A DNA stretch of 38,097 nt from positions 1 to 38,097 of IMG/VR virus record IMGVR_UViG_3300022752_000180; one strand, given 5' to 3'. The notes under the pieces are model-generated. The model worked only from the letters and a program-made list of their open reading frames with translations. It was not told the origin of the DNA and ran no database searches. Shown piece by piece: positions 11,076 to 38,022 of this stretch. How positions within the stretch are numbered: position 1 is the first letter of the stretch; every line of letters starts with the position of its first letter. This DNA is from a virus. The translations under genes were made by a program, and so were the position numbers.

Positions 11076-11639
11076 ATGAGCATACACAAACTTAAAAGTC
11101 TCATTAAAGAAACGTTACTTGAAGCAACAGCTAGAACAAGAGATCGATCTCGTCTTCGTTCAAAAACTTTGTATGTGTTTGACTTCGATCATACCATCGC
11201 AAAAACAATCGAAGAAAACATTCGTTTGCCGGATGGTAGAGTTGATTTGCGTGCATTTTCTGGTTTAAGCAAGCAAACAAAACCAAACGGTCGTATATTT
11301 GATTTGTTTGCAGACAACGTTGCTAACAACCCAACAACAACGTTCATTCTCACTGCAAGACCTCCTGCTGTCAAAGAACCTATGTTGGAATGGTTAAGCG
11401 AGCATGGTGTAGATATCGATCCAGAAAATGTTATTTGTTTGGGAAGTAGTGCTGGCAGCAAAAAACGTCAATGGATTAAAGACAAAATCATTGAGCTCAA
11501 CGCAACAAAAGCAATGTTTTGGGATGACAGAGAAAGCAACACAAAAGCTGTTGAGCAACTACAAGATATAAACAAGCATCCCGAAATGGAAAATGTCGAA
11601 GTTGTAGTAACACTAGTACCAAAAAAAGTGAAGCCATGA
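11076..11639 (+). CDS. HAD-family phosphatase with virion-type N-terminus (copy 1)
   Basis: A 187-aa HAD-superfamily protein. Motif I is FDFDHT with D36 and D38; motif II is ILTARPP with T93; a Lys pair at 129-130 can serve as motif III; motif IV is FWDDRE with D150 and D151. All catalytic positions of a phosphatase are present, with no large cap domain. The first 12 residues, MSIHKLKSLIKE, match the N-terminal signature of the small proteins in this window and precede a basic linker (RTRDRSRLRSK). The start follows AGAGG. It overlaps copy 2 by ATGA. Related small HAD proteins include polynucleotide 3'-phosphatases and RNA-repair-like HADs; the substrate is not determined. The N-terminus suggests it may be packaged in the capsid (inference). 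Confidence 0.82.
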   Translation: MSIHKLKSLIKETLLEATARTRDRSRLRSKTLYVFDFDHTIAKTIEENIRLPDGRVDLRAFSGLSKQTKPNGRIFDLFADNVANNPTTTFILTARPPAVKEPMLEWLSEHGVDIDPENVICLGSSAGSKKRQWIKDKIIELNATKAMFWDDRESNTKAVEQLQDINKHPEMENVEVVVTLVPKKVKP

Positions 11640-12307
11640 ACGAAAAGTTGAAAAGCATCATCAAGTCGGTTATTCTGGAAGTTCAAGAAGAACGTTCGAA
11701 ACTTGGTGTTATATCTTCACGCACTGGGTTAAGAACGCTGCGAGTGTTTGACTTTGATGATACCTTAGCCAAAACAAACTCAAGAGTTTGTGTAAGTGAA
11801 TACGATAAAGAAACCGATGCACCTATCGGAGATGAATATGCAATCACTCCAGCAGAGTATGCCACATTCAAAGTTAACGTAGCATCTAAACATCCAGAAA
11901 TTGAATACAAGTATGATTATCGTGAGTTCGCAGAGGTGCGAGATCCAAAAATCATCGATTTCACATTTGCTATTCTTCGTAATGTTGTACGTAAACTAAG
12001 AGAAGAATCAGCGTTCCCAGCAGTTATTCTTACTGCAAGAGGACATGATGCAAACAAAAACATTGCAAACTTCTTACGATCATTTGATATCGATATTCCT
12101 GTGATCACATTATCTGGGTCTGCACCAGAACTAAAAAGCAACTGGATCAAAGAAGCTATGCTAACCAAAGATATTCCACAGATTGAGTTCTTCGATGATA
12201 GCCCTCTCAACGTCGAAGCTGTTGCCAACTTAAACTCTGATGAAGTACTTAAAGCAAGGTTTGGTACAAATCTAAGAGTACGTTCACGTTTGATCAAAGC
12301 ACACTGA
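11636..12307 (+). CDS. HAD-family phosphatase with virion-type N-terminus (copy 2)
   Basis: A 223-aa HAD protein overlapping copy 1 by four bases (ATGA). Motif I is FDFDDT with D39 and D41; motif II ILTARGHD with T133; motif III Lys near K167 (ELKSNWIKE); motif IV FFDDSP with D187 and D188. It is a diverged relative of copy 1 with an insert of about 35 residues between motifs I and II. It starts MNEKLKSIIKSVILEV, a weaker form of the shared N-terminal signature, with a candidate prohead-protease site at ILE rather than IKE. Both copies keep all acidic residues, so both are probably active. It is followed by a strong terminator. Confidence 0.83.
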   Translation: MNEKLKSIIKSVILEVQEERSKLGVISSRTGLRTLRVFDFDDTLAKTNSRVCVSEYDKETDAPIGDEYAITPAEYATFKVNVASKHPEIEYKYDYREFAEVRDPKIIDFTFAILRNVVRKLREESAFPAVILTARGHDANKNIANFLRSFDIDIPVITLSGSAPELKSNWIKEAMLTKDIPQIEFFDDSPLNVEAVANLNSDEVLKARFGTNLRVRSRLIKAH

Positions 12308-12308
12308 A

Positions 12309-12355
12309 AAAGAAAAAGACTTGCAGATTGTTACATCATGCAAGTCTTTTTCTTT
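12309..12355. terminator. Bidirectional hairpin terminator
   Basis: A perfect 17-bp inverted repeat (12309-12325 with 12339-12355) with a 13-base loop. It is T-rich on the plus side and A-rich on the other, so it can work both ways between the convergent HAD pair and the leftward gene at 12372. Confidence 0.9.
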
Positions 12356-12371
12356 AGCTATTGATCGTTGT

Positions 12372-12677
12372 TCAGCGTCGAGTTTTACGAACTGATGCAG
12401 CTTTAACACCACGTTTATAACCAGCACGAAAAGCTTCGTTAACAGCTTCTGTGTATGGGTTAACATCGATTTCTTTTTCTGGGGTGTTTGCTTCTCTTTC
12501 ACGACGCTCCCGCCCCTTCCGCATCCGATCTTCATAACCCCCTTCATCATCAGCTACATCATAAGAGTCGCCCCAGCGATTGCCGCCAGCACCCCCCCTG
12601 CTGTAGTCGTATTCTTCCAAAGATTCTTCCGCAGCTTCACGGATTAATCTTTTAAGATCTCTTATCTTAATACGCAT
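12372..12677 (-). CDS. Small virion-type protein, paralog of the 12691 gene
   Basis: A 101-aa protein in three parts: the shared N-terminus MRIKIRDLKRLIREAAEES; a Gly-, Tyr- and Arg-rich acidic middle; and a C-terminus with AFRAGYKRGVKAA followed by the basic tail SVRKTRR. The next gene upstream (12691) has the same N- and C-termini with a different middle, so the two arose by duplication. The basic tail could bind DNA; the N-terminus resembles a capsid-targeting peptide with a cleavable IRE site. No catalytic motif is visible. The start follows AAGAGAA. Confidence 0.75.
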   Translation of the reverse strand: MRIKIRDLKRLIREAAEESLEEYDYSRGGAGGNRWGDSYDVADDEGGYEDRMRKGRERREREANTPEKEIDVNPYTEAVNEAFRAGYKRGVKAASVRKTRR

Positions 12678-12690
12678 AGTTTTCTCTTAT

Positions 12691-12897
12691 TCAGCGACGA
12701 ACTTTACGGGTTGTTGCGGCTTTAACGCCACGTTGATAACCAGCACGGAATGCACGGCTCACAGCTTCATGAAGAGCAGCTTCTTCTTCAGCAGCTTCAT
12801 CCATATCCATACCTTCATCTTCTTGTTTCATTTCGTCCATAGCTTCTTCAGCAGCTTCACGAATCAACGCCTTGAGTTGTTTAACTGTAACTTTCAT
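12691..12897 (-). CDS. Small virion-type protein, paralog of the 12372 gene
   Basis: A 68-aa protein starting MKVTVKQLKALIREAAEEA after a strong AAGGAGA site. The middle is Met-, Glu- and Asp-rich, and the C-terminus AFRAGYQRGVKAA plus TTRKVRR is nearly identical to that of the 12372 protein. Only 13 bases separate the genes. The sharp charge split (acidic middle, basic end) and the N-terminus fit an internal capsid protein of the kind that T4 trims during maturation. Function is unknown; the coding call is firm because of paralogy and ribosome site. Confidence 0.78.
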   Translation of the reverse strand: MKVTVKQLKALIREAAEEAMDEMKQEDEGMDMDEAAEEEAALHEAVSRAFRAGYQRGVKAATTRKVRR

Positions 12898-12944
12898 GAT
12901 ATATTCTCCTTGGGCAACGTTGCGCCTTGCTAATAAGTAATACG

Positions 12945-13160
12945 CTATTTAGAAACTTTCTTCTTTCCCATAGCTTTCATGATTTTTGTTGCTGTACCAT
13001 ATATCGCTTTTTCATTATCACCGTAGCGTGGCTTAAGCTCAGTTTTGATAATCTTTTCTACTTCGGGTGGGAAATGAATCTTGCCCTCACGCTTTTTCTT
13101 TTTGGCTTCCATTATAATCTCTTCAACAATGAGTTTGATTAACTCTCTTACTTCCTTCAT
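12945..13160 (-). CDS. Small basic protein of unknown function
   Basis: A 71-aa, strongly basic protein that starts MKEVRELIKLIVEEIIMEA and continues into KKKKREG. The N-terminus is a looser version of the signature seen in neighbours, with IVE as a possible protease site. The second half contains the stretch KIIKTELKPRYGDNEKAIYG, which may be a small helical domain, and ends with KKKVSK. It starts after GGAGGA and lies 15 bases downstream of the HxGH nucleotidyltransferase. The basic content would suit binding to packaged DNA, but nothing shows this directly. Confidence 0.7.
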   Translation of the reverse strand: MKEVRELIKLIVEEIIMEAKKKKREGKIHFPPEVEKIIKTELKPRYGDNEKAIYGTATKIMKAMGKKKVSK

Positions 13161-15350: not shown

Positions 15351-17327
15351 TCAGATGATTGACATATCGAGACAGGTTACGGTTGCGTAGAAGTCCGCAC
15401 GAACCATCTTCTTACCGTAGCGGGTCATGATGCCCTTACGTGGGGTGAAGTCCTCTTGTCCGTAGATTACGGGGGTGAGGATGAGTGGTACGTATGGAGC
15501 GTAGATATAACCGCTTTCAAGGAAGGTTGAACCCTTAAGACCGATAAGGATCTTGTTTACTGGGAAGTATGGGTCAACGAACACTGAGTAGCGACCGTTT
15601 ACTGTACCGACTGCTTCTGCGCCGATGCTCATGTTATCACGAACTTGGCCATCGCCGTCGATCTTGTAGTTGGCACGGTAAGCAACTGTTGCTTCAAGGA
15701 TTGTACCCACTTCTGGTGAGCACACGATGAAGTTACCAGATCCACGAAGGGTCTTCTTGTGGATGACGTTGGCTGCGTCTGTGATGGTTTCGATAAGTGT
15801 TTCGTACCATTCACGGACTGTACCTGTGAACTGTGGACCGGGATAAACGGTGTTGGTACGAGCAACTTCGGTGCCTGTGTACTTGTTGACGAAGCGACCG
15901 GGTGCACGGCTCCAGAAGTAGTTAGCTGCTTGAGCTTGTGTGAGGAGGTCGTTGAGAATTTCACGGTCGATATCGAGGGTGATCATCTCGGAGAGAATGT
16001 TTGTGAGCTCTGCTTCAACGTCGATTGAGTAGAAGGCTGTGAGGTCTTGAGCCATTTCTGGTGACCAACGAGCACGGAGCTTACGGGTTGTTGCTGTCAC
16101 TGCCACTGAATCGATCTTGATATCTACGTCTGGGATGCGTGGTGATGCATCAACGGCGAAGTTAGATTCGAAGCTTGGGATTGTAAGAGCAGAACCGTCT
16201 GCGTTCACTGAGAGAGCATCAGCGATTGGGGCTGAAGCTGTTACACCTGTGTTTGCTGGAGCGCCGTTGCCGACGAAGCCTGCGCCGTTGATTGCTGTTA
16301 CGCCGTTTGCAAGTGCGAGAGCAAACAAAAGGTGGGTGCCGTTGAATGGATCTGGTGTAAATGTTGAGCTTGTGCCAGCATCTGTCCAGTTACCACGCTT
16401 GGTGAAGCGACGGAAGTTTTTGACTGCTTCGCCTTGTTGGTAGGTTTGTGGAACATTGAGGAATGTTGCTGTTGAACCACCAAAGCCTGTAAGAGCGATT
16501 TGCTCAACTGAGGTTAGGTCTGCACCATTGATTGCTGTTGTGAGAGCAGAAGCTGAAACAACCAAGAAGGTATAGTCGAGTTGACTTGCTTCTACGTCTG
16601 CTGCTAGGGTTGGGTCGTAATCAACAAAGCGTGCGTTGTAACCAACAACTGCGCTAGCTGATGCAACGGTTGAGCCTGTTGCCCAGTATGTACCGCCTGT
16701 CCATGCACCAAGAATGGTTGCTTGTGCTGCACCAGCGAGGTTACCTTGAACGTGAACTTTTGAATAACCTGAACCAATGAGGTTGTATTGACCACCAGCG
16801 GCGAGTGAACCGCTTGTGCGGATTACTGAACCTGATGGGTTGGTGTATACTGATTGGCCACGGGCATAGGTTGCTGCACCGGGATCTGCACCAACTGCGT
16901 ATTGGTTGCCAGATGTACCAGCATCACCACCGACGTATGAACCGTAGGTGTAATCTAAGTAGAAGAGTAGACCTGATGGAAGGCTCATTGGTTGAACGCT
17001 GACGATTTCGTTGGCAACGAGGCCAGCGAATACACGGCGAACGATTGGGAATGCTACGTTGGTGAAACCTGCCACTTGGCCGGATGATGCGAGTGATGCA
17101 CCACCAGTTGAGAGTGAGAGGCTTTCGTTGAGCATTGAGCTGCCACCCTTGAGAACTTCTACGGCTTGGTTTTCGAGGAGGCGAGCCATCTTTTGCTTGC
17201 CTGCTGCTGAAAGACCTTCTAGAAGACCTGTGCGTGACCATTTACCGACCATGCGATCATCGCCTGCGTTTGCTGCGGTACGTTGAATACCTTCAGCTAG
17301 TTGTGAAAGAGTTAGTGTACGTGACAT
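15351..17327 (-). CDS. gp23: Major capsid protein (T4 gp23-like)
   Basis: A 658-aa protein (T4 gp23: 521 aa). The N-terminal region, with WSRTGLLEGL and KMARLLENQAVEVLKGG, is followed by the HK97-fold body: FTNVAFPIVRRVFAGLVANE, the long central beta region, DREILNDLLTQ, NFIVCSPEVG, and a C-terminal stretch SGYIYAPYVPLILTPVIYGQ typical of T4-type capsid proteins. Several (L/I)xE sites near residues 30-60, such as LLE, are candidates for maturation cleavage by the prohead protease, as T4 gp23 is cut after residue 65. Extra Gly- and Ser-rich inserts in the middle probably form surface loops. The start follows AAGGAGATTTATAA, the strongest leader in the head block. Its base composition is richer in GC than its neighbours, typical for a highly expressed gene. 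Confidence 0.96.
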   Translation of the reverse strand: MSRTLTLSQLAEGIQRTAANAGDDRMVGKWSRTGLLEGLSAAGKQKMARLLENQAVEVLKGGSSMLNESLSLSTGGASLASSGQVAGFTNVAFPIVRRVFAGLVANEIVSVQPMSLPSGLLFYLDYTYGSYVGGDAGTSGNQYAVGADPGAATYARGQSVYTNPSGSVIRTSGSLAAGGQYNLIGSGYSKVHVQGNLAGAAQATILGAWTGGTYWATGSTVASASAVVGYNARFVDYDPTLAADVEASQLDYTFLVVSASALTTAINGADLTSVEQIALTGFGGSTATFLNVPQTYQQGEAVKNFRRFTKRGNWTDAGTSSTFTPDPFNGTHLLFALALANGVTAINGAGFVGNGAPANTGVTASAPIADALSVNADGSALTIPSFESNFAVDASPRIPDVDIKIDSVAVTATTRKLRARWSPEMAQDLTAFYSIDVEAELTNILSEMITLDIDREILNDLLTQAQAANYFWSRAPGRFVNKYTGTEVARTNTVYPGPQFTGTVREWYETLIETITDAANVIHKKTLRGSGNFIVCSPEVGTILEATVAYRANYKIDGDGQVRDNMSIGAEAVGTVNGRYSVFVDPYFPVNKILIGLKGSTFLESGYIYAPYVPLILTPVIYGQEDFTPRKGIMTRYGKKMVRADFYATVTCLDMSII

Positions 17328-17392: not shown

Positions 17393-19597
17393 TTACTTTG
17401 CGTTTCTCTTCACACCAGCAAGGATTTGCCAGCGTGTAGTGTCGAAGCTTGGTTCTACAACTGATTCTGTGAGCATACGTGCTGGACGTTGTGCTGATTC
17501 TTTAATCATTGCGCCGTTTTTCTTACCAGCATCTAGTACACGAACAAGACGGTTGTAGATTTCTTTTGCTTCTGCAATTGTGTTGGCACTGTCGAGATAC
17601 TCAACGATTTTGCGTTTTTGTGTCCCGGTCAATTCGTCCCTCACGAAAAGCTTGTTTACATACAATGAACGTGCGGTGAGAAGTTGTGTTTCATGAAGTT
17701 GACCACGAAGAGCCTTGTTTTCATTAACAGCTTTGCGAACGATTCTACGAGATTCTTGAAGAGCTTCTTCTTCTGAAGATTCTTCTTCAACCTCTTCTTC
17801 ACCCTCTTCTTCACCCTCTTCTTCACCCTCTTCGGCATCTTCCATGCCTTCTTCTTCCATGTCAACTTCGAGTTCTTCACCATCAAGTGAAACGTTAACG
17901 TTGCTGACTGAGGAACCTGATACACCGTCTAGATCGATAGTGAGTGAAAGGCTATCTTCTGCTTGTTCACGAAGAGCTTTTAGACGAGTACGGGCTTTGC
18001 GTGCTTCCATCATTACTTCTTCATCTGCGAGCTCAAGAACAACTTCGTCTTCAGCTTCAGCTTCTTCGTGCATTCCTTCTTCTTCGCCTTCCATTTCGGC
18101 CATAAGCTCACCGATTTCTTCTTCTAGTTGTTCTAGAAGAGATTCTGGTGATGGCTTACCGGGCCATTCTTTCTTTTGTTTGGTTGGAAATGGAGCTTTT
18201 TCAGCTTCTGCTTTAACACCCTTTGGGTTACCAGAAACTTTGTGAGCGTGTTCAGCTGAACCGCCTTCTGAATCTCCAGCAGGATCAACCTTGCCTACTG
18301 CGTCTTCAAAACCTTCAGCACCTTCAAAAAGTGCCTTAACTAAATCTTTCAATGAATTTTTCTTTGCCATGATATTACCCTTTGCTAATGGATTTTGCTT
18401 ATAACTAGTGATTACGTTCAGATTTTCGTATAGCAATCCCAATCTGTCTTCATTGAAAGAAAATAGTCTAGGGGATATTGCATTTTTTGCCTTTAAACCA
18501 AGCAAGTTGTTGTACAATGAAAACAGCTGTTTTTCATAAGCTTCTTTCAAAAACAACACGTTTGTATTTGCTTGCTTGTTGCGTAGTGATTGAACTAAAC
18601 CTTCTGCACGATCAAGGTTTTGTTTGAAAACTTTATATTCTGTTACAGGAGCGGGAGCGGGAGGAGTTCCGGCTGCGGCTGGTGTTGGTGTAACAGGTGG
18701 TACTGCGGCACCGGTTGCTGGGGGTGTTGGTGCAGCTGCGTCGGCAGGAGGAGTTGCTGGAGGTGCTGCCCCTACGGCTGGTGGAGCAGCGGGAGGTGGT
18801 GCTGCTGGAGGTGCTGGTGCTGCCCCTGCCGCTACATTTAAATCACCTGTGGGTGGTGGAGCAGCTGCATCAGGCGTAGCTGGAGGAGTTGCCGCTGGGG
18901 CAGCTGGTGGAGTTGCTGGAGGAGCAGCGGAAGCATCTGGTGTCGCTGGTGGTGCAGCAGGAGGTGCAGCTTGTTCACGCAAAAGCTTTTGAACTGCACG
19001 ATAAATCTCTGTAAGAGATTCTGGTGATGGTTCGGCTGGAGCAGGAGTTGCTTCTGGTGATGGTGGTGCTTCTGTTGCTGATGGCATAGAAGAATCGGGA
19101 GAAGCGGCAGCTTCTGGTGCTGGAGACGCTCCTGCTGGTGTTTCTGTTGTGCCTGCTGATGCCGGTGTTGTTTCTTTTTGGAAAAGCGCATCTACAGGAA
19201 CAACGATTTGTTGTTCGCCGCCGGGACCGATATCAATCTTACCAATAACTTCACTGCCGGGAGATTTGATTGGTGGAGCAGCAGCAGAAACTGCTGGTGT
19301 CATTCCCGGCATTGTTGGTTTAACTTCTGCACCGGCTGCGGGTGCAGCATCGATTGGACCTGTTGAGCCTGCATCCGGTGATGGTGCTGGTGGAGGCGGT
19401 GGAGGTGCATCGGCTGAAGCTTCTGGTGCGGGAGGTGGTTCCTCTTGTTCCAAGATGATTCCAGAAATTTCTTTATCGATCATTTGTTTAATCAACGGAG
19501 ACACAGCTTCTAAAACTGCATTTTTTGCTTCGACGGCTGCTGCATCACGAAGCTTTTTTGCTTCAATCAATGCTTCTTGGTACAAGGGTGTTGACAT
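17393..19597 (-). CDS. gp22: Prohead core scaffold (T4 gp22-like) fused to a Pro/Ala-rich N-terminal module
   Basis: A 734-aa protein just upstream of the major capsid gene, the place of scaffold gene 22. Parts: a helical N-terminus rich in Ala, Lys and Glu (1-50); a very long Pro-, Ala- and Thr-rich low-complexity stretch (about 52-320); a helical segment (about 325-405); then from M410 a T4-scaffold-like region with acidic helices, including a run of Glu-Gly repeats, many (L/I)xE protease sites and a helical C-terminus. Scaffold proteins shape the prohead core and are then digested by the prohead protease. T4 gp22 has 269 residues; the part from M410 (325 aa) alone is close to that. An internal ribosome site before M410 suggests two products. 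The start follows TAGGAG. Confidence 0.8.
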   Translation of the reverse strand: MSTPLYQEALIEAKKLRDAAAVEAKNAVLEAVSPLIKQMIDKEISGIILEQEEPPPAPEASADAPPPPPPAPSPDAGSTGPIDAAPAAGAEVKPTMPGMTPAVSAAAPPIKSPGSEVIGKIDIGPGGEQQIVVPVDALFQKETTPASAGTTETPAGASPAPEAAASPDSSMPSATEAPPSPEATPAPAEPSPESLTEIYRAVQKLLREQAAPPAAPPATPDASAAPPATPPAAPAATPPATPDAAAPPPTGDLNVAAGAAPAPPAAPPPAAPPAVGAAPPATPPADAAAPTPPATGAAVPPVTPTPAAAGTPPAPAPVTEYKVFKQNLDRAEGLVQSLRNKQANTNVLFLKEAYEKQLFSLYNNLLGLKAKNAISPRLFSFNEDRLGLLYENLNVITSYKQNPLAKGNIMAKKNSLKDLVKALFEGAEGFEDAVGKVDPAGDSEGGSAEHAHKVSGNPKGVKAEAEKAPFPTKQKKEWPGKPSPESLLEQLEEEIGELMAEMEGEEEGMHEEAEAEDEVVLELADEEVMMEARKARTRLKALREQAEDSLSLTIDLDGVSGSSVSNVNVSLDGEELEVDMEEEGMEDAEEGEEEGEEEGEEEVEEESSEEEALQESRRIVRKAVNENKALRGQLHETQLLTARSLYVNKLFVRDELTGTQKRKIVEYLDSANTIAEAKEIYNRLVRVLDAGKKNGAMIKESAQRPARMLTESVVEPSFDTTRWQILAGVKRNAK
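17791..17838 (-). repeat. 12-bp tandem repeat coding for Glu/Gly in the scaffold gene
   Basis: Three exact copies of CCTCTTCTTCAC and a partial fourth on the plus strand. They encode GEEE units in the acidic part of the scaffold protein. Such in-frame repeats can change copy number without breaking the frame. Confidence 0.85.
18368..18383 (-). promoter_or_regulatory. Internal ribosome binding site and ATG inside the scaffold gene
   Basis: On the minus strand AAAGGG (18383-18378) stands 7 bases before an in-frame ATG (18370-18368) that codes for M410, followed by MAKKNSLKDLVKALFEG. It would give a 325-aa product of gp22-like size. No stop separates it from the upstream part. Confidence 0.6.
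18655..19440 (-). repeat. Pro/Ala/Thr-rich low-complexity coding region
   Basis: A long stretch of imperfect GGTGGAGCAGC-like units on the plus strand, coding for repeats of PPAAPPATP type in the scaffold protein on the minus strand. It is GC-rich compared with the rest of the window and gives long open frames in other phases that are artefacts. Confidence 0.75.
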
Positions 19598-20342: not shown

Positions 20343-20870
20343 TTATTCGAAACTACCTTTTTTAGAACCGGGAAGGTGACCTTCACCACCCGAGCCTCTT
20401 GGTCCACCGGGACGATTTGAGATAGGTGAGTTAAAAGCTAAACGAGCCCATGTAGACGCAGGAGTTTGCTGTGGTTGAGCCATTTGTTGAAGTGCAGCAA
20501 CAGCATTTGGATCTCTTGGAGGTAATGGATTACGTGCTTGTGGAACATAACCAAGAGAAGAAGGAGAAGATATATTTTCTCCAAGCATGTTAAGGTTAAC
20601 TCCAGCTGGGAGAGTCATTCCATTTGGCATAATACCTTGTTGTTGCATTGGAAGCGAAGTAACAGCGGTGTCAGCAAATATTTGTTCCATAATAGGATTG
20701 CCTCCAGCAGCCATTTTGATTCGTGGATCTTGCATAACAGCTTGTTGTTGTAAAACGTTTGAGCGTTCAGCAAGCATTCCACCAACCATATGATCTAATG
20801 CACCTTCAGCAACAAGTTCCTTAAGGCACTCTTTTATAATCGCTTTAAACTCTGTTTTTTGAATCTTCAT
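20343..20870 (-). CDS. Head-block protein with virion-type N-terminus
   Basis: A 175-aa protein starting MKIQKTEFKAIIKECLKEL, a variant of the shared N-terminal signature with an IKE site at residues 12-14. The rest is rich in Met, Gln, Pro and Asn with no obvious domain, and it ends in GSKKGSFE. It sits right after the prohead protease gene, a usual place for core proteins that are packaged and trimmed. A candidate late promoter element lies in its 39-base leader. The Shine-Dalgarno is weak (AAGAAGTAAC). Unknown function; a capsid-internal role is inferred. Confidence 0.72.
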   Translation of the reverse strand: MKIQKTEFKAIIKECLKELVAEGALDHMVGGMLAERSNVLQQQAVMQDPRIKMAAGGNPIMEQIFADTAVTSLPMQQQGIMPNGMTLPAGVNLNMLGENISSPSSLGYVPQARNPLPPRDPNAVAALQQMAQPQQTPASTWARLAFNSPISNRPGGPRGSGGEGHLPGSKKGSFE

Positions 20871-20906: not shown

Positions 20907-20909
20907 GTT

Positions 20910-21521
20910 TCAAGGTTTTTTACGAAGAGCTAATATTTCGTTAGCGGCACGATCTACAAGGTCGCTTTTTGTAAACACGGTCTTAACAATGTTTGCATCA
21001 TATTGTTTAGCTTCGGCCATCATGAATGCACCCGGAGTGCTTGGCTCGCTTACAAAGTCCCAGCAAATAATCTGTAGGTCATCTTGAACAACGTTTACAT
21101 TGTTTTCACGTTGCAAAGAACCCAATGCTCTGCTAGAGATTCCCGGTTTGCATTTTGCCTTGATAATAGATTCAATGATTTTACCGCAAGGTGTATCAAG
21201 GATTTCTACCTTGCCATATACAACGTCACCTTCCATCCAGATTTCACGAATAACGTGAGAGATGTTTTTCATGTTGACGATTGGTTCATTGGCATGGTCT
21301 AGTTCACCAAAGGCTCTATTCTCACGAATAAGTTTTTCGTAGTTACGGATTTCACGTTCAAGAATATGACGGGGGTATACACGACCATTTTGGTTTAATG
21401 TGTTAGCTTTTTGAAGAATGCCATTAAGAACAAGTGGTTTACCTTCTTCTCTTTTATCTAGATCTAAATCGTTGTACTCAAAGGCAGTAAACTCTTTGAG
21501 AAGAAACTTTTTGTCGTTCAT
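20910..21521 (-). CDS. gp21: Prohead core protease (T4 gp21-like)
   Basis: A 203-aa serine protease of the T4 gp21 family (T4: 212 aa). The segment RAFGELDHANEP carries the catalytic His (H76), and KPGISSRALGS carries the catalytic Ser (S129 or S130). The N-terminal part with NGRVYPRHILEREI is also typical. The enzyme acts inside the prohead, cutting scaffold, capsid protein and internal proteins after Glu in (L/I)xE contexts before DNA packaging. It overlaps the upstream gene by ATGA (21518-21521), so translation is coupled. It is the probable processing enzyme for the family of proteins with (L/I)I(R/K)E N-termini elsewhere in the window. Confidence 0.96.
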   Translation of the reverse strand: MNDKKFLLKEFTAFEYNDLDLDKREEGKPLVLNGILQKANTLNQNGRVYPRHILEREIRNYEKLIRENRAFGELDHANEPIVNMKNISHVIREIWMEGDVVYGKVEILDTPCGKIIESIIKAKCKPGISSRALGSLQRENNVNVVQDDLQIICWDFVSEPSTPGAFMMAEAKQYDANIVKTVFTKSDLVDRAANEILALRKKP

Positions 21522-22455: not shown

Positions 22456-24480
22456 CTATTCTGATTTCAACTCTTTTTCTATAAGGAATAGTTCATCGTT
22501 AACTTCAACCGATTTTGTATTTTCGTTAACGATTTCTACCGACTGCGTTGTTTTCTGTGGGTGTAAAGCTTCATTTAATCTACGAAGCGATGTTTGCATT
22601 TCTTTGGACAAACCAAAAGGCAACCTGTGATTTGTACCAAAAAGATCTTTTTCCATGTCAGATTCTTCTAGCACAAACTTGCGTATCGATTCTGTGTCAA
22701 ACGGATCTTTTGCATAACGGTTGTTGGTGATATCCAACATCTTTTTAAAGTCTGGCATAACAAGAGCTCTGTCGCCTGTAAACGCTTTGCTTCTTCTGGA
22801 CTTCCTAAAGCTTTTATCTAGATTTGGTGTTGGACTGAATCTAATAGGAGCACCACTGTTGTTTCCAGATTTTTCTTCACGCTCTTTTGCTCGCTTGGCT
22901 TGATACTCTTGTTCTTCTTCTTGATTTTGAATCTCAACCTTGCGAACTTCTTTTTTGTCTGGTGCGTATGGTGATGTTGGAACTTCGTAGTTGCTCTTGT
23001 CAAAGATATCGATATTTGAATCAATGCTTTTATCAAACGGCGGATTCTCTGCAATCTTTTTAAGCTCGGCCATTGCAACTTGATCTTGACGAGCTTCTTG
23101 TTTGATTATGTTGATTTGTTCTGGGCGCAAACCAAGAATCTCTCGTTGAATATAGTTGAAGCTTAACAGCCCAGTTTCTTTTGAAAGCTCTAATGCTTTT
23201 CCTGCAATTTCGAGTTTGCTGGAAATAAGAGCCAGCTTTTGTTGCACCGCAACAGTTGATGGGTTGGAAAACTTTATATCAAAGTTCAACAAATCATCGC
23301 CAGAGAATCCAAGTGAATACAAATGAATCATTGCAAGCTTGTTAAGCTCTGCAACAAGAATCTTTTGCAGCTGACCAACTGTTCTGGAAAATCTTATGTC
23401 TTCTTGTGCTAGAGTTGCTTTGGAGCTAATCGCTTCATCGTAGGTAAGATAAGCTTTTGGCACCATAAGTGCTGCAATAAGCTTCTTGTGAATATACTCT
23501 ACGTCTTCGATAGCTGTTGCGTTTTGTCCCCCAGCCAACGACTCAATCTTGGTTTGATTGTTTGGACGGGTTGGTAGGAAGTAGTCTTCATCAATAGCAA
23601 GAGGATTATATCGGAAATCTTGACGACCTGTTTGCTGCTCGATTACAGAAGCACCACGCATGGATTCTTTAACAGCTTCCATATAGCTTGGAATATCATT
23701 TGGGTGTACAGCAGATACGTCTACATAAAACACTCTGCGTTCTGGAGAGCGTACAAGACGATATACCAACATGGAGTCTTCCATCATGGTAAGTTGTCTC
23801 CAAGGTCTTCTTGCCGACTCTAAAAAGCTCGTACCATATGGAAGAAACAAATCGTTTCCAAGAATACGGAAATGAAGCATTTGCCAGTTTTCTAGATACT
23901 TGCCGCCTCTTGTAATAAGTCTAAATCTAACAGCGTAAGGATCGTGTTTATCGAATCCTTCTTCACGTTCTACTTCGTTTACTGGAAGGGGTTCTACGTT
24001 GATTACACCATAATCAGGAACAACTTCAACATACATGAAGTAGTCACCGTTTTTGACAAGGTTACGAACCATACGACGAGCATTAAACTCAATGTTTAAA
24101 ACATCATAGAAAAGTTCTTCGAGAGCACGTTGGATTTGTGGAACATCGCTATAGATGTGAAACGTTCTACCGTTTTCATCTGAAGCACAAGATTCATCAG
24201 CGTACACGTTTAATGCTGTAGCAATGTCTGCCGTATTTTCCATCTCAGCAAACTCTGCATATCGAGACATACGATCAAGGATACCGTAGGCTCCCATTAC
24301 AGAAAACGGAGACGCTTCACGTTTGAAGCCAGCCGCACCATAGTAACCAAGATTGTTTTGCACTACTTGGTTGTCGTAGAAGTTTTTATAATCTTGACCA
24401 CGAACTTTTCTACGGATCGCAGGACCGCTACGAAACAATCGTGTTAAACGCTGATAAAAACTCTTTTCTTTTTTGGCCAT
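22456..24480 (-). CDS. gp20: Portal protein (T4 gp20-like)
   Basis: A 674-aa protein (T4 gp20: 524 aa). Visible family segments are the basic start with FYQRLTRLFRSGPAIRRK, MSRYAEFAEMENTADIATAL, FLESARRPWRQL followed by EDSMLVYRLVRSPERRVFYV, and VPKAYLTYDE with KATLAQEDIRFSRTVG. The C-terminal 150 residues are polar and rich in Lys and Glu, longer than in T4. Portal dodecamers sit at one capsid vertex, start prohead assembly and form the channel for DNA entry and exit. It is the first gene of the leftward head block and starts after CAAGGTTAAGC. The 68-base spacer on its right is shared with the divergent rightward block. Confidence 0.96.
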   Translation of the reverse strand: MAKKEKSFYQRLTRLFRSGPAIRRKVRGQDYKNFYDNQVVQNNLGYYGAAGFKREASPFSVMGAYGILDRMSRYAEFAEMENTADIATALNVYADESCASDENGRTFHIYSDVPQIQRALEELFYDVLNIEFNARRMVRNLVKNGDYFMYVEVVPDYGVINVEPLPVNEVEREEGFDKHDPYAVRFRLITRGGKYLENWQMLHFRILGNDLFLPYGTSFLESARRPWRQLTMMEDSMLVYRLVRSPERRVFYVDVSAVHPNDIPSYMEAVKESMRGASVIEQQTGRQDFRYNPLAIDEDYFLPTRPNNQTKIESLAGGQNATAIEDVEYIHKKLIAALMVPKAYLTYDEAISSKATLAQEDIRFSRTVGQLQKILVAELNKLAMIHLYSLGFSGDDLLNFDIKFSNPSTVAVQQKLALISSKLEIAGKALELSKETGLLSFNYIQREILGLRPEQINIIKQEARQDQVAMAELKKIAENPPFDKSIDSNIDIFDKSNYEVPTSPYAPDKKEVRKVEIQNQEEEQEYQAKRAKEREEKSGNNSGAPIRFSPTPNLDKSFRKSRRSKAFTGDRALVMPDFKKMLDITNNRYAKDPFDTESIRKFVLEESDMEKDLFGTNHRLPFGLSKEMQTSLRRLNEALHPQKTTQSVEIVNENTKSVEVNDELFLIEKELKSE

Positions 24481-32303: not shown

Positions 32304-35300
32304 ATGCCCAAGCTAGCGTTTGTGTCTGATATTCATTGGAGAGGTATCACTCGACATGATGAATATACACAAGTTTTTACTGAACTTTTTCGTCAACTAA
32401 AAGAAGAAGTAAAGCCTGACTATATTCTTTGTGGTGGAGATATTTTCCACACTAAAACCATGTCGATTACACCAGAAGTGATTGAAAAAATCACATGGAT
32501 GTTTAATGAGCTTGCTCTTATTGCTCCGGTATACTCTATTCTTGGCAACCATGATGGTAATCTAACCAACGATAATCGTCAAGATACCATTTCTCCGATT
32601 GTTGCCGCTATCAATAATCCAAGAATCGTTTTGTTCAAGAAAAGCGGCAACTGGATTATTCCCAACACAAACATCAACCTATGTGTTTTGTCTTGCTTTG
32701 ATGAAGCTGGATGGAATAACGTTCAGACAGATCATGATCTAATCAACATCGCAATGTTTCACGGCTCTGTAAGAGGTTGTGCAACAGATAGCGAATGGGT
32801 TATGACTCATGGAGAAGCTGAAATCTCTATGTTTGAACGTTTTGACTTTGCTCTTTTGGGAGATATTCACAAGCAACAGTTTCTTGGTTATCGTTCGCAT
32901 GATGGCATCACAAGAGACATGAAGCCTTGGATTGGTTATCCCGGTTCTCTTATCCAGCAGAACTATGGTGAAGATGTTGTTAAAGGTTATCACGTTTGGG
33001 ATATTCGTTCTGCTGATGATTGGGATGTAACCTTTCATCAAGTAGCAAACGATTACCAGTTCATCACAGTGGATTGGAAAGGTGATGTAGCATCTACTGT
33101 ATCAGAAGCTCTCAAGGTTGCAGGTAAAACCTTGCAGCATAAGCGTGTTCGTATTGTGTCAGATCAAACAGTGTTTCATCTTCAAATGAAAGAACTGTAT
33201 GACGAGCTAAAGAACAAGCACAAAGCCAGTGAAGTAGTTTTCAAGGCTGGGAAGAACGAGAACATTAGCGAGAGTGGATCTGACGAAGATACGCACCAAA
33301 AGGCCACCAGCCTTCGTAACTCTCCAGAACTACTTTGTGAGCTCTATGATTCCTTTGTAGAGAAAGATTACAAGATCGCTTTGTCATCTACGCAAAAAGA
33401 TGAAGCAAAGGCATATGTTCAGAAGTCTCTGGAAAAGGTGCGGCAACTGGAAGATGATGTTGCCAGAGATGTTGTGTGGTCTATCAAAGATATCGAATGG
33501 TCTAACCTATATCGTTACGGAGAAGGAAATCGTATTGATTTTTCTAATCTCAATGGTATCACAGGTATCTTTGGTCCAAACAAGGTAGGAAAGAGTTCTA
33601 TTGTTGGTTCTCTTATGTTTGGTCTATTCAACACAACAGACCGAGGACCGGTAAAGAGCTCTTATATCATCAACAAGAATAAGCGTGAAGGTTACGCAAG
33701 AGTAACTATCAACGTATCTGGAACCGATTATGTTGTTGAACGTTCTGTTGCCAAGGCATCAAAGCGTGGCGGTAGATATGATGATGAAAAGGCTGCAACC
33801 AAGCTTTGTTTGTCTCGTCTGGAAAGTGATGGAACAGAAGTAGAACTGGTTTCTGAAAACAGTGAATCCAGAACAGATACCGACAAAGTTGTTCGCAAGC
33901 TTATTGGAACATCACAAGATTTTCTACTTACTGCCTTTTCAAACCAAGGTGGAATGAACCGCTTTATTGATGAAGGTGCAACACAACGCAAAGCTATCCT
34001 TAATCGATTCCTTGACTTGGATATCTTTGAAAAGCTTTACAAGATGGCAAATGAAGAACTCCAAAAGTTCAACACTCTTAGTAGCAAGTTCCGTAACGTA
34101 AACTGGAACGAAGCAAAGAGTGAATGCCAAGCTTCAATCGATTCTTGCAATCAAGATATCTTTGCAGCAAAACAAGATGTTGATAACAAAAAAGAAAGGC
34201 TTGAAAAGCTTCGTGGTTGGTTGCAACGTCATGGTGCGGACAAGCAAGCCGATCTTCGTCGCAAGGTTGCAGAAGCATCTAATAAGTGCGAACGCATTCA
34301 AGGTAAGCTTGCAAATCGTCAAGTAGAACTTGACGGTCATAATGACAGCTGTAATAACTTGCGTGAAAAGCTACAAGAAATCAAGCAGCAACTAGCAAAT
34401 ATGCAGCTTGCGGAACTTGAAGAGAAAGCTGGAAAGCTTAAGAAGCTCGGTGAAAGCTACAACGACCTTAAGGTTGAAGTATCACAAGAACAGCAAAAAC
34501 TAGCTGTTCAAGTAAAGAGTATCAAGAAACTTGATATGGTACCATGTGGTGATAGCTTCCCAACTTGTCACTACATTAAAGATAGTCATGCAGACAAGGC
34601 TACCCACGAAGCTCAAAAGAAGCTTGTTGAAGATATTCTTGCAACGTATGAAACTGTGAAAGCAGACTTTGACGCTCTGCAACAGGAAAAGATTGAAGAG
34701 CAAATCAAAGCATATCGTCGCTGGGAGAAAGAACTAGAAAGCAACGAACAAAAGCTTTCATTTTCCGAAACCTTGATGAAAGGCTGTGTTGATATCATTG
34801 CTTCTCTCCAGCAAGAACTTGAAGCTGCTAAAACAGAACATGTAGCTCTTGTAGAGGAGCTAAACAAGCAAGAGGATCTAGGTGCTAGTATCGAAGAAGA
34901 GCGTGTTCTAGCTGCTGCAATCCGTGACATGGAGAACAAACTTCAACGACTTTACGTCAAACTTGGAGGCTATACCAACAAGCTTGAGCAACTAGTAAAA
35001 GAAGCAGAAGAAGCTGCAAAGATTGTTGAAGAACAAAAGGTATATGATTCCATCGTGCAAGCATTCTCCAAGAATGGTATTCCAGCATATGTTCTAAAAA
35101 ACAAGCTTCCTGAGATCAATGCCGAGCTAAACAATATTCTTGCTGGTATTGTTTCATTCCGTATCTTTCTGGAAACAGAAGTAGGCAGCAACACTCTGGA
35201 TGTGTTTATCGAAGACAAGGACTCTAGAAGGGTTATAGAGCTTGCTAGCGGCATGGAGAAGATGATTGCATCTCTAGCTATTAGAGTAGCTCTAATAAGC

Positions 35301-35516
35301 CTTTCAAGCCTTCCCAAGCCCGATATCTTTATCATCGATGAAAGCTTTGGAGCGTTGGATAGCTCAAACTGTGCAAAGGTTATTGAGTTGTTGCAGACAA
35401 TCAAGAATCGTTTCAAGAGCATCTTGATTATCTCTCACGTTGAAGAGGTAAAAGAAGCTGCAAACAATATCCTAACGATTTATGACAATGGAGTAGAAAG
35501 CAGTGTTAACTGCTGA
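32304..35516 (+). CDS. Fused Mre11-Rad50 recombination nuclease (T4 gp47 + gp46 in one chain)
   Basis: A 1070-aa protein after GGAGAAATAAACTT. Residues 1 to about 350 form the calcineurin-like nuclease of gp47/Mre11/SbcD: SDIHW (D9, H11), GGDIF (D46), GNHD (81-84), MFHG (H153) and GDIH (187-190). From about 400 comes a Rad50/gp46/SbcC ATPase: Walker A GPNKVGKS (424-431), two long coiled-coil arms around a hook with C748 and C755 (PCGDSFPTC, spacing C-x6-C rather than CxxC), the signature ASGMEK (981-986), and Walker B IFIIDES (1008-1014). In T4 the two are separate proteins that resect DNA ends for recombination-dependent replication. The linker (about 340-400) is helical and charged. Both halves keep their catalytic residues. 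Confidence 0.95.
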   Translation: MPKLAFVSDIHWRGITRHDEYTQVFTELFRQLKEEVKPDYILCGGDIFHTKTMSITPEVIEKITWMFNELALIAPVYSILGNHDGNLTNDNRQDTISPIVAAINNPRIVLFKKSGNWIIPNTNINLCVLSCFDEAGWNNVQTDHDLINIAMFHGSVRGCATDSEWVMTHGEAEISMFERFDFALLGDIHKQQFLGYRSHDGITRDMKPWIGYPGSLIQQNYGEDVVKGYHVWDIRSADDWDVTFHQVANDYQFITVDWKGDVASTVSEALKVAGKTLQHKRVRIVSDQTVFHLQMKELYDELKNKHKASEVVFKAGKNENISESGSDEDTHQKATSLRNSPELLCELYDSFVEKDYKIALSSTQKDEAKAYVQKSLEKVRQLEDDVARDVVWSIKDIEWSNLYRYGEGNRIDFSNLNGITGIFGPNKVGKSSIVGSLMFGLFNTTDRGPVKSSYIINKNKREGYARVTINVSGTDYVVERSVAKASKRGGRYDDEKAATKLCLSRLESDGTEVELVSENSESRTDTDKVVRKLIGTSQDFLLTAFSNQGGMNRFIDEGATQRKAILNRFLDLDIFEKLYKMANEELQKFNTLSSKFRNVNWNEAKSECQASIDSCNQDIFAAKQDVDNKKERLEKLRGWLQRHGADKQADLRRKVAEASNKCERIQGKLANRQVELDGHNDSCNNLREKLQEIKQQLANMQLAELEEKAGKLKKLGESYNDLKVEVSQEQQKLAVQVKSIKKLDMVPCGDSFPTCHYIKDSHADKATHEAQKKLVEDILATYETVKADFDALQQEKIEEQIKAYRRWEKELESNEQKLSFSETLMKGCVDIIASLQQELEAAKTEHVALVEELNKQEDLGASIEEERVLAAAIRDMENKLQRLYVKLGGYTNKLEQLVKEAEEAAKIVEEQKVYDSIVQAFSKNGIPAYVLKNKLPEINAELNNILAGIVSFRIFLETEVGSNTLDVFIEDKDSRRVIELASGMEKMIASLAIRVALISLSSLPKPDIFIIDESFGALDSSNCAKVIELLQTIKNRFKSILIISHVEEVKEAANNILTIYDNGVESSVNC

Positions 35517-35575: not shown

Positions 35576-36154
35576 TCAGTCTTCTTCTTTTTTAGCTTTT
35601 CTCTTGCTTTTCTTTCCAAGTGCTTTAAAGTCTGCTCCAGTAAGCTTACCGAAAGGTGGAGCTTTGTCAAGTTTCTTTTGATCACCTTTTAGTTCTTCTT
35701 CTTCTTCCTTGATTGCTTCACGAACAGCTTTTTTGATTGACTCTGCAAGGCGTCTACCCATACCACTCTTCATTGGAAGATTTTCCAAATCTTCTCCTTC
35801 ATAACCCATCGCAGCAAGTTCAGCTTTTGCCTTATCTGCTTCTTCACGTTCTTTTTGAAGTTCTTTAAAGAATTCTTCTTCTTCTTTAGCTTCTTGAGCT
35901 CTTGCTTTGATTTCTTCAGCGTAATGTTGCTCTAAGTGCTCGATCATAGCTGCAAGTTCATCTTCTGACACTTCATCCATTCTAAGCCAACGTGGACGAA
36001 TGTTGTACATCTCTTTGTACATATCACTGTAAAGTTGAAACAAATCTTCCTTTTTTGATGGAAGATTTTCTGCTTGACGTTCTAAATCCATTGGATCGAT
36101 ATCTTCTACAGTTTCACGAATAAGTTGTTTGAGTTGTTTTACAGTAATACGCAT
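35576..36154 (-). CDS. Virion-type charged protein
   Basis: A 192-aa protein starting MRITVKQLKQLIRETVED. The rest is highly charged: DLERQAENLPSKKEDLFQL, a long Glu- and Lys-rich helix from about 95 to 130 (with EEEEFFKELQKEREEADKAK) and a second IKE-containing helix near 140-150 (LAESIKKAVREAIKEEEEEL). It ends in a basic KKSKRKAKKEED tail. This looks like a coiled, DNA-associated or core protein. A second (L/I)xE site sits in the late helix. The start follows CAAGGAG. No family is recognised. Confidence 0.75.
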   Translation of the reverse strand: MRITVKQLKQLIRETVEDIDPMDLERQAENLPSKKEDLFQLYSDMYKEMYNIRPRWLRMDEVSEDELAAMIEHLEQHYAEEIKARAQEAKEEEEFFKELQKEREEADKAKAELAAMGYEGEDLENLPMKSGMGRRLAESIKKAVREAIKEEEEELKGDQKKLDKAPPFGKLTGADFKALGKKSKRKAKKEED

Positions 36155-36201: not shown

Positions 36202-36714
36202 TTAAAAGAGGCTACGACCGTAGGGGGGCATCCTACTAGTATCAAGATCTTCTGGCCACTCAGAACCCAAGCCCGTGGTTGGACGATTTGGGTTCTGAGG
36301 TCGAGGAGGTATTATTTCGTTAGCCCTCATTATTGGACTTTTCATTATGGCCGCCGCAGCGGCGTCCTTGAAGACACCGCCCGATCTACTAGCATCCACC
36401 AACTTGTGCTCGACACGCCGTTGATCGTAAAGATCTTCAAAGTCTTTAATAAAAAACTTCCACGACTTTTTTTCAAGTTTTTCAAGTTTTTCATTCAGTT
36501 CTTTTGCTACTCTTTTTCCTTCGTTTAGTTCGCTATACAAAGCTATCCACCAAACTTTATTCGTTTCTGTGTTTTTTAGACCCAATCCGCATTTGTATTC
36601 TGGTGGTGGTGGTGGTCTTCTGTTGGGTTTGTATGTGCTTGGATCGATTTTTGGTGGTAACTCGCTTAAAGCTTCTTTGATTAAACGTTTGAGTTGTTTT
36701 ACAGTAATACGCAT
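36202..36714 (-). CDS. Virion-type protein with Pro-rich linker
   Basis: A 170-aa protein starting MRITVKQLKRLIKEALSEL; its first nine residues are identical to the 35576 protein. A Pro-rich linker (RRPPPPPEYK) leads to a small domain with KVWWIALYSELNEGKRVAK, a pattern of strand and helix that might be a sporulation-related-repeat-like or other small alpha/beta fold (speculative). The C-terminal part is Pro- and Asn-rich. The start follows AAAGGAATC, with a well-formed late promoter candidate about 30 bases ahead. Function unknown. Confidence 0.72.
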   Translation of the reverse strand: MRITVKQLKRLIKEALSELPPKIDPSTYKPNRRPPPPPEYKCGLGLKNTETNKVWWIALYSELNEGKRVAKELNEKLEKLEKKSWKFFIKDFEDLYDQRRVEHKLVDASRSGGVFKDAAAAAIMKSPIMRANEIIPPRPQNPNRPTTGLGSEWPEDLDTSRMPPYGRSLF

Positions 36715-37131: not shown

Positions 37132-37156
37132 TCATACTACTTAGTTGATACATAAA

Positions 37157-37179: not shown

Positions 37180-37184
37180 GGTTC

Positions 37185-37258
37185 GGGCCGTTAATTTAGT
37201 GGGAAAATAGCTGGTTTGCATCCAGTTTTCGGCAGTTCGACTCTGCCACGGTCCACCA
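37185..37258 (+). tRNA. tRNA-Ala (anticodon TGC)
   Basis: A full cloverleaf of 74 bases including an encoded CCA: acceptor GGGCCGT with ACGGTCC, 4-bp D stem ATTT/AAAT, anticodon stem GCTGG/CCAGT with loop TTTGCAT, 4-base variable region and T arm GGCAG-TTCGACT-CTGCC. The third acceptor pair is G-T (G3:U70), the classic alanine identity element. It reads GCA and probably other GCN codons. Confidence 0.95.
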
Positions 37259-37274
37259 CTCGAATAGTCGAGTG
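37257..37274 (+). other. Hairpin directly after tRNA-Ala
   Basis: A 7-bp perfect stem (37257-37263 with 37268-37274) and 4-base loop, overlapping the last two bases of the tRNA's CCA. There is no T-run. It may guide 3' processing, but this is inference. Confidence 0.45.
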
Positions 37275-37305
37275 ATTTCACACACATACACACAGGAGAT
37301 TTATT

Positions 37306-37509
37306 ATGAGTTCAACAGGTTATGAGATTCGTCATGCCTTGCTAAATGAAAGCAAGGAAATGCTTTTTGAGCGTTGGCACACAGAAATGGAAATCGAGCG
37401 TATTAGCGCAGAACGTGAGAATCGTTCGCCAGTTATGCTTCCATGCCCAACGATTGAGGATATCAAGCGTACCGCTGAAAGCCTCTACGAGTTTGTACAA
37501 AAACGATAA
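37306..37509 (+). CDS. Unknown small protein between the tRNAs
   Basis: A 67-aa protein after a strong AGGAG site. It begins MSSTGYEIRHALLNESKEML and has a second helix IEDIKRTAESLYEFVQKR. This pattern of a first helix with a GYEIR start and a last helix with LYEFV recalls a small conserved protein of T4-like marine phages whose function is not known to me. It lies in one transcription unit with both tRNAs. Confidence 0.72.
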   Translation: MSSTGYEIRHALLNESKEMLFERWHTEMEIERISAERENRSPVMLPCPTIEDIKRTAESLYEFVQKR

Positions 37510-37516
37510 TATAAGA

Positions 37517-37539
37517 GTTGCTCAACGTTCTTGAGCAAC
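37517..37539 (+). other. Hairpin just upstream of the second tRNA
   Basis: A perfect 9-bp stem (37517-37525 with 37531-37539) and 5-base loop, three bases before the tRNA. It parallels the hairpin before tRNA-Ala. No T-run follows. Confidence 0.5.
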
Positions 37540-37542
37540 GAT

Positions 37543-37626
37543 GCCGGGTTTGCATAGAGGTCGATTGCACCAGTTTTGTAAACTGGTATTTAAACACCGT
37601 GGGTTCGAATCCCACACTCGGCTCCA
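37543..37626 (+). tRNA. tRNA with Thr anticodon (TGT) and long variable region
   Basis: 84 bases including CCA. Acceptor GCCGGGT with ACTCGGC (one G-T pair), discriminator T; D arm with a 3-bp GCA/TGC stem and a loop containing A14, G18-G19 and A21; anticodon stem CCAGT/ACTGG with loop TTTGTAA, anticodon TGT; a 12-base variable region; T arm GTGGG-TTCGAAT-CCCAC. The anticodon reads ACA and would mean threonine. The 3-bp D stem and 12-base variable region look like class II (Ser, Leu, Tyr) bodies, so charging by threonyl-tRNA synthetase is not assured. Confidence 0.8.
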
Positions 37627-37633
37627 AATAAAA

Positions 37634-37672
37634 CACAAAAGGCACCAAAGGGATAACCTTGGTGCCTTTGTG
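37634..37672. terminator. Bidirectional terminator after the tRNA unit
   Basis: A 14-bp stem with one bulged A (37634-37648 with 37659-37672), T-rich on both outer sides. It ends the rightward tRNA unit and the convergent gene at 37699. Confidence 0.88.
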
Positions 37673-37698
37673 ATTTTACGCAAAAATAACGAGAAAAA

Positions 37699-38022
37699 TC
37701 AATATTCCCCGCCGCCTTGCATACTATCTATAACACGCTCCATCTCTTCTTTTGTTGGTTCAACGGCAACGGATTTAATGAATATGTTTGGAAGTTTGTA
37801 TTTTCTAGCGAAGGCTTTGGCGGCGGATTCGGTTGAGAAAAGGCCGATAGTACGACCAACACGACCAGCAGTCAAAAGATACATTTTCTTGCTTGAGCGG
37901 CCTTTATTATGTAGTTGACCACGGTCGTCGCCGGGATCGATTTCATAACCTGTCATGTCATCATGAGCTTCATCAATCGCTTCTCTAATCAAACCTTTTA
38001 GTTGTCTTACTGTTACTCTCAT
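37699..38022 (-). CDS. Small virion-type protein
   Basis: A 107-aa protein from the ATG at 38022, which follows AAAAGGAG; an ATG 16 codons upstream would place the ribosome site inside the gene and is rejected. It starts MRVTVRQLKGLIREAIDEA. A small domain follows: MYLLTAGRVGRTIGLFSTE, then AAKAFARKYKLPNIFIKSV, an alternation of strand and helix in a compact fold. It ends in GGGEY. The N-terminus is of the same class as those of the 36202 and 35576 proteins. No family is recognised. Confidence 0.75.
   Translation of the reverse strand: MRVTVRQLKGLIREAIDEAHDDMTGYEIDPGDDRGQLHNKGRSSKKMYLLTAGRVGRTIGLFSTESAAKAFARKYKLPNIFIKSVAVEPTKEEMERVIDSMQGGGEY

Follow-up and report, generated by a model that had tools for sequence, protein, structure and literature searches.

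Bacteriophage T4 has three internal proteins that carry a capsid-targeting sequence (CTS), one of which blocks a host restriction enzyme. Rao and Black describe the internal proteins of the T-even phages as diverse defence proteins in which only the CTS is conserved (PMC3012670); in T4, the mature proteins reach the host cell along with the DNA and work inside it (PMC3012670, PMC9391042). The prohead protease gp21 cuts after (L/I)xE, and within the CTS of IPIII residues 4 and 7 matter for targeting and residues 8 and 10 for processing, with Asp at residue 10 blocking the latter (PMC9026906). Two shell proteins are also cut in this way: gp23 loses 65 residues (SFLTE↓A, where ↓ marks a junction) and gp24 loses ten (MAKINELLRE↓S; PMC9958956). 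The CTS cut, FIAE↓A, is of the same kind. Here, we describe a short N-terminal peptide (the ‘tag’) on otherwise different proteins encoded by IMGVR_UViG_3300022752_000180, a virus record of 38,097 bases in its own right (the ‘window’) and by its relatives; from sequence comparison we consider it probable that the tag is a gp21-cleaved, prohead-targeting propeptide that works like the CTS of T4.

Six minus-strand open reading frames (ORFs) of the window, with starts at 12677, 12897, 20870, 36154, 36714 and 38022, match the strict motif M[RK][IV].{2,6}[FL]K.[LI]I[RK]E, and all are found by a first hidden Markov model (HMM) of the tag (E 4e-15 to 4e-12; the six are among its 16 training tags):

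12372..12677, minus strand: tagged protein, 101 amino acids; tag codons 1-14 at 12636-12677, MRIKIRDLKRLIRE↓A; strict motif and HMM
12691..12897, minus strand: tagged protein, 68 amino acids; tag at 12856-12897, MKVTVKQLKALIRE↓A; strict motif and HMM
20343..20870, minus strand: tagged protein, 175 amino acids, directly after gp21; tag at 20829-20870, MKIQKTEFKAIIKE↓C; strict motif and HMM
35576..36154, minus strand: tagged protein, 192 amino acids; tag at 36113-36154, MRITVKQLKQLIRE↓T; strict motif and HMM
36202..36714, minus strand: tagged protein, 170 amino acids; tag at 36673-36714, MRITVKQLKRLIKE↓A, then a Pro-rich stretch; strict motif and HMM
37699..38022, minus strand: tagged protein, 107 amino acids; tag at 37981-38022, MRVTVRQLKGLIRE↓A; strict motif and HMM

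The strict motif has no match in 200 first-order Markov resamplings of the window, on which count a chance origin is rejected; a loosened core motif clusters in the first residues of the longest ORFs in seven genomes, occurring at seven ORF starts in the window (0.11 expected) and at 34 in the 289-kb relative G010 (1.4 expected). The N-terminal module is real, and strongly non-random. A preliminary description of this DNA had claimed the shared N-terminus for these six proteins and a gp21-like protease in the same window, and both claims are borne out; of its family of ‘at least nine’, six members are firm and the other three only possible in this 38-kb fragment. It had also held that the rest of each protein is unrelated, which needs qualifying: the proteins at 12372 and 12691 have a common C-terminal stretch (74% over 23 residues), and two HAD-type proteins among the looser candidates are paralogues. 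Residue 15 is small in all six (A, A, C, T, A and A, respectively), and the 20343..20870 protein has a further VAE↓G beyond its tag. As a separate observation, the C-terminal third of the 35576-36154 protein is similar to separately tagged small proteins of relatives (L105, L119); two tagged proteins seem to have been fused here, leaving a tag-like stretch in the interior.

The same strand carries a T4-type head module, with portal, gp21-type protease and gp23-type capsid protein:

20910..21521, minus strand: gp21-type prohead protease, the proposed cutter (PF03420, E 1.8e-29; phrog_207, E 4.7e-48)
15351..17327, minus strand: gp23-type capsid protein (phrog_138, E 9e-71); proposed propeptide end SMLNE68↓S, a junction kept in relatives
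22456..24480, minus strand: gp20-type portal protein (phrog_213, E 8e-57)
17393..19597, minus strand: Pro/Ala-rich protein, 734 amino acids, in the scaffold (gp22) position by gene order

The product of 17393..19597 has no Pfam match and just one weak PHROG match; judged by position alone, it is a possible docking partner of the tag.

In the capsid proteins of 44 relatives, among them immuto, Mel-JY01 and LR756508 (eight more distant capsid proteins, from T4, cyanophages and others, and one partial ORF being left out of the count), the junction behind a LENQ-like motif has L41 I2 V1 at P3, R24 N11 K6 S2 A1 at P2, Glu at P1 and S19 A14 F3 Q3 T3 N2, never Glu, at P1′. The tag junction, I(R/K)E↓A/S, is of the same kind as this one and as the cuts in T4 gp23 and gp24. 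In IMG/VR, G023 and G041 each have two neighbouring gp23-type capsid genes.

Set beside the CTS of T4, the tag is likewise an extreme N-terminal peptide on otherwise different proteins, with an MK start and an (F/L/I)IxE↓A end at a gp21-type site; both come in a short and a longer form, that of T4 spanning 10-19 residues (PMC9026906) and the tag 14 or about 22-27. Aligned at the cut, CTS residues 4, 7, 8 and 10 correspond to tag residues 8, 11, 12 and 14. The tag differs in being basic and Leu/Ile-rich, on bodies that are mostly unknown; in its abundance, with up to 28 tagged genes per contig against three in T4; and in that upstream DNA is common to T4 ipII and ipIII, but not to the tagged genes. 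The propeptides of gp24 and gp23 share with it the gp21 cut after (L/I)xE, but these are parts of shell proteins rather than an address common to unrelated cargo. The present case is the T-even internal-protein architecture, enlarged and with another tag.

The link to gp21 is also one of position: a tag-bearing ORF starts no more than 1.3 kb behind gp21 in 55 of the 59 gp21 loci with room for one (HMM E≤0.1; two of the HMM's 49 rows come from this gene, and some loci are near-duplicates), none being found there in L013, L014, L016 and L063. We selected 48 records by the tag, from 49 of 80 listed loci (at least 120 stretches were found; those left out are mostly contigs below 25 kb and repeats), and in these gp21 occurs in 23 and gp23 in 20, with gp21 in every one of the 20 that have gp23. 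Eleven of the 12 such records of at least 130 kb have gp21, the exception, G035, also lacking gp23. The counter-example that the preliminary description had named, the motif in a genome without a gp21-type protease, did not turn up among records with visible T4-type head genes. As a control, 46 records of at least 60 kb were picked without the tag (39 of 80 listed ThyA-pattern loci and seven of 80 listed random-pattern loci); gp21 is present in 17 of these (15 over the cut-off), and in 12 of the 19 of at least 130 kb (10 over the cut-off). The tag occurs in two control records, both gp21-positive and with the tag beside gp21, although two of 17 against none of 29 is too small a contrast to test.

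From 314 loci we assembled 584 distinct tagged proteins, counting each distinct 40-residue C-terminal end once; they fall into at most 409 body groups (BLAST E<1e-5, single linkage); this is an upper bound, because the proteins are short (median 115 amino acids) and some are cut by locus ends. Of the 409 representatives, 382 have ungapped tags; in these the most informative positions behind Met1 are residues 8 (Leu, 4.12 bits), 12 (Ile, 4.01) and 14 (Glu, 4.00), as against 2.17 bits at residue 10 and 2.30 at the variable residue 13. Residue 14 is Glu in 367 of the 382 and Asp in none, where the bodies have 8.9% Glu and 8.6% Asp; the Glu count is biased, since both the HMM and the pattern used to pick contigs favour Glu there. 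Residue 15 is nearly bimodal in the 373 representatives with a recognisable core (36 without one being dropped), with Glu in 247, A/S/T/C/G in 101 and another residue in 25. Where residue 15 is small, conservation drops off after residue 16; where it is Glu (‘E15’), conservation runs on to residue 22 (Glu in 47%) and then falls.

Of the 247 E15 tags, 188 have a further (L/I)xE with its Glu in residues 18-35, mostly at 21/22 or 27, versus 31 of the 101 with a small residue 15; with A/G/S/C/T/N required behind it, the counts are 93/247 and 12/101 (Fisher p 8e-7). In E15 tags of at least 72 residues, the share with [LI]xE is 77% in this zone and 23% beyond it, that with [LI]xD goes from 29% to 15%, and, [LI]xR apart, the others are little changed. 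At second sites with L/I at residue 20, residue 22 is Glu in 95 of 120 and Asp in one, and ten E15 tags are extended by five residues and again end in (L/I)xE, now at residue 27, for example EYSRLKRRGLIRES. We read these as two or three lengths of one propeptide, each apparently ending at a protease site, with 59 of the 247 E15 tags left unexplained. The preliminary description placed the cut after E14, which fits the small-15 class and the window's six with it; E14 is probably the cut only if residue 15 is small; for the larger E15 class, a cut at the second (L/I)xE, in most cases that at 21/22 or 27, is the more likely.

Several observations weigh against a cleaved, CTS-like propeptide. The tag HMM scores T4 IPI, IPII and IPIII at -1.0 to -1.4 bits, with no homology detectable, and our claim is accordingly that the tag ‘works like’ the CTS, not that it belongs to it by descent. 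If tags are not collapsed by body, the contrast in strict further sites weakens to 114/319 against 39/178 (p 0.0016). No gp21 is found in 25 of the 48 tag-selected records, although these also have neither gp23 nor an HK97-type portal, so that they tell nothing about the link and look like fragments without a head module, which is not proven. Conversely, 15 of the 17 control records with gp21 carry no tag and G008 (137 kb, gp21 present) has none at E≤0.01 with a second HMM, so that gp21 does not require the tag; co-occurrence may in part reflect shared descent within one phage lineage. Finally, the (L/I)xE patterns would also suit an amphipathic helix.

This last point leads to the alternative that survives best, though we hold it to be unlikely: that the tag is a docking helix which recruits proteins to a phage machine (the head core, the tail, or a transcription/replication complex) and stays uncut. 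The presence of one tag on unrelated bodies would follow from recruitment by itself, and the amphipathic basic pattern is what such a helix would have; the 59 E15 tags lacking a further (L/I)xE in residues 16-35 also speak for it, as does [LI]xR, which appears to double in the E15 zone (0.12 to 0.25). Docking without cutting does not, however, account for conservation that ends at two different lengths, each at (L/I)xE, for a residue 14 at which Asp never replaces Glu and a second site at which it rarely does, when bodies use the two about equally, or for the like junction that the relatives' capsid proteins show. The reading as a cleaved propeptide, which the preliminary description also advanced, passes the sequence tests applied to it (conservation, Glu and not Asp at residue 14, the capsid junction, the gp21 link, and a HAD domain with and without the tag); what had to be amended is the E14 cut for the E15 class, and the want of sequence homology to the CTS stands.

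At the DNA level, codons are shared in excess within tags as compared with the 5′ ends of non-tag genes (G010 0.65/0.48, G012 0.59/0.41, G013 0.59/0.44), an excess that stops at codon 14, while the 40 bases upstream are hardly alike (0.29-0.34 versus 0.28-0.29 expected). This suggests copying of a 42-bp unit, and tags may be copied or exchanged as such modules. A more radical version, in which the first 42 bases are themselves the element, a recombination joint or translation enhancer spreading between genes with the peptide as a by-product, draws on the same excess of identical codons; we regard it as very improbable, as 35-41% of same-residue codon comparisons differ, the protein pattern persists from genome to genome, the upstream DNA is hardly carried along, and two lengths, each with a protease-like junction at its end, are not what a DNA element would show. 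It may nevertheless be true in addition, as the way in which tags are copied. Over 177 pairs from 45 body groups, the similarity of a tag to unrelated tags on the same contig (0.75) slightly exceeds that to its orthologue's tag (0.71), and does so in 118 of the pairs; these pairs are not independent, and we do not use the similarity as support.

Behind the tag, the bodies are diverse. We scanned 112 proteins, the 110 longest of 390 complete representatives and the two HAD-type proteins of the window, and most have no recognised domain. Pfam gives 15 families with one or two members each, some overlapping on one protein (AAA_33 twice; YkuD, RNase_T, zeta toxin, tRNA-ligase CPD, EF hand and further families once each), PHROGs gives 12, with phrog_415 polynucleotide kinase in three, and PADLOC gives two; no common function emerges from the three. 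The looser candidates of the preliminary description lie in the window as follows:

11076..11639, plus strand: HAD-type protein with a weak tag-like start, MSIHKLKSLIKETLLE↓A, a possible member (HMM E 0.006; phrog_415 polynucleotide kinase, E 1e-8)
11636..12307, plus strand: second HAD-type protein with a tag-like extension, MNEKLKSIIKSVILE↓V, a possible member by its homologues; no HMM match
12945..13160, minus strand: small basic protein with a tag-like start, MKEVRELIKLIVEEIIME↓A, a possible member by its homologues; no HMM match

The 11076 protein is a weak HMM match (E 0.006 in one search, 0.022 in another), and the other two are not matches. Homologues of all three, for 12945 a single comparable one, retain a short extension at the N-terminus, ahead of the conserved part, that includes (I/L)xE; as tag carriers, the three are plausible but unproven. 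The two HAD-type proteins are 32% identical, and the domain shows the modularity cleanly: the L171 and L229 homologues begin right at the core, a weak tag precedes it in the window and its near relatives, and in an L142 homologue the full tag, MRITVGQLRTLIKEAMQEL, stands ahead of VFDFDET. A structure model of the second HAD-type protein from five sequences (mean predicted local distance difference test, pLDDT, 76; predicted template modelling score, pTM, 0.66) shows the extension as a low-confidence helix; Foldseek returned no PDB match at E≤0.001 for this model, the best being 8.5e-3, with several of the top ten HAD-type, and the model contributes little to the case. In L229, part of G010, a 477-residue ORF (4018-5448, minus strand) joins an untagged HAD domain to a later stretch with MKITKRHLKRIIKKALIE, at which a tagged gene of its own may also begin.

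That all tagged proteins are one fast-evolving family whose C-terminal parts have diverged beyond recognition is scarcely credible and we reject it: the upper-bound nature of the group count, the shortness of the bodies and some paralogues would favour it, but it is contradicted by the unrelated known domains (HAD, AAA_33, YkuD, RNase_T, zeta toxin, EF hand) and by HAD homologues without the extension.

The tag extends far beyond the window, in keeping with the motif search that the preliminary description suggested. With the window's gp21 we found 65 related IMG/VR loci, and a DNA pattern for the tag gave at least 120 stretches in IMG/VR; the same pattern in 84,980 bacterial and archaeal species genomes gave nine, on six contigs of five metagenome-assembled genomes (MAGs), two of which hold gp21 (counted per MAG, not per contig). 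The second HMM (49 rows, many of them from the genomes counted; start-anchored hits at E≤0.01, one per ORF) finds 28 tagged ORFs in G010, 21 in G013 (202 kb), 12 in G012 (102 kb), eight each in G015 and G004, six in the window, four each in G003, G001 and G002, two each in G014 and G005, and one in G011; G006, G007, G009 and G016 have one or two matches each to the first HMM at E≤0.1. Head-to-tail arrays of tags are common (e.g. G010 at 52.6-60.2 kb and G012 at 50.6-54.5 kb).

Among annotated phages, tblastn with a consensus-like peptide of 25 residues had no hit even at E 10, the peptide being too short. Scanning nine named records with the second HMM gave 15 matches at E≤0.01 (start codons not checked) in the uncultured 484-kb LR756508, a single one (0.002) in S-SSM7, located inside the portal gene, weaker matches only in phiM7 and Mel-JY01, and none at E≤0.5 in RM378, LR756511, XacN1 and S-RIM2. 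The isolate Flavobacterium phage vB_FspM_immuto, which has a gp20/gp21/gp23-type head, has four at E≤0.01, one inside immuto35A_191 and three at starts of genes annotated without function: MKKSQLRQIIKEA (immuto35A_190, E 3e-6), MKKSQLREIIRKE (176, 0.001) and MKLDLLKKLIKEA (156, 0.004); a fourth start, MKKSELVKLIKEE of immuto35A_175, was recognised by eye. This phage differs in its few members and in a second N-terminal type, M..NFDLKKFLVENKLT. In immuto (L554, L534) this start recurs as M..NFDLKKFLVENKLT.NS.(L/I)L(K/E) on several unrelated-looking proteins, some beside the terminase and gp21 genes, and is perhaps a second tag type.

Elsewhere in the window lie two adjoining tail-sheath-like proteins of ~1,000 residues each (1440-4475 and 4578-7697, minus strand), a histone-deacetylase-family protein truncated by the window end (1-759, minus strand; PF00850, E 7e-27), a GIY-YIG protein (26245-27135, plus strand; PF01541), a GroEL-type chaperonin (28557-30302, plus strand; PF00118), and Metallophos (SbcD-like) and SMC/SbcC-like parts fused in one chain of 1,070 amino acids (32304-35516, plus strand).

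Synthesising the above, one tag stands on unrelated bodies, ends sharply at a gp21-type junction and is linked to gp21; from this we infer the docking, cleavage, packaging and injection of the following model, along with any function of the bodies. During head assembly, the 14-residue basic amphipathic segment would dock on the prohead core, and the gp21-type protease would then cut after (I/L)xE: at residue 14 if residue 15 is small, or, in the E15 class, at a later (L/I)xE, in most cases the one at 21/22 or 27. The freed bodies would remain in the head among the DNA, and we propose that at least some of them enter the next host with it, and act there before phage genes are expressed.

Searches of the open-access literature brought up work on the T4 CTS, but no paper with the six tag strings and, among those listed, no title or abstract on such a family; as peptide strings are rarely printed, the T4 CTS string itself having no occurrence in the papers listed for it, this is weak evidence of novelty. 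On balance, we think it rather likely that a large, mostly uncultured, T4-like branch loads many different proteins into each virion (dozens in the largest contigs) by one protease-removable tag, in exchangeable arrays, and that the tag is a signature by which hundreds of unknown phage-delivered families can be read from metagenomes. If the tag does work like that of T4, hundreds of protein groups that large aquatic phages may deliver into host cells can be recognised by a simple signature at the N-terminus, which would make them foremost candidates for roles in counter-defence and early takeover; the tag would also provide a second, unrelated-looking targeting sequence with which to study how phage heads choose their cargo.

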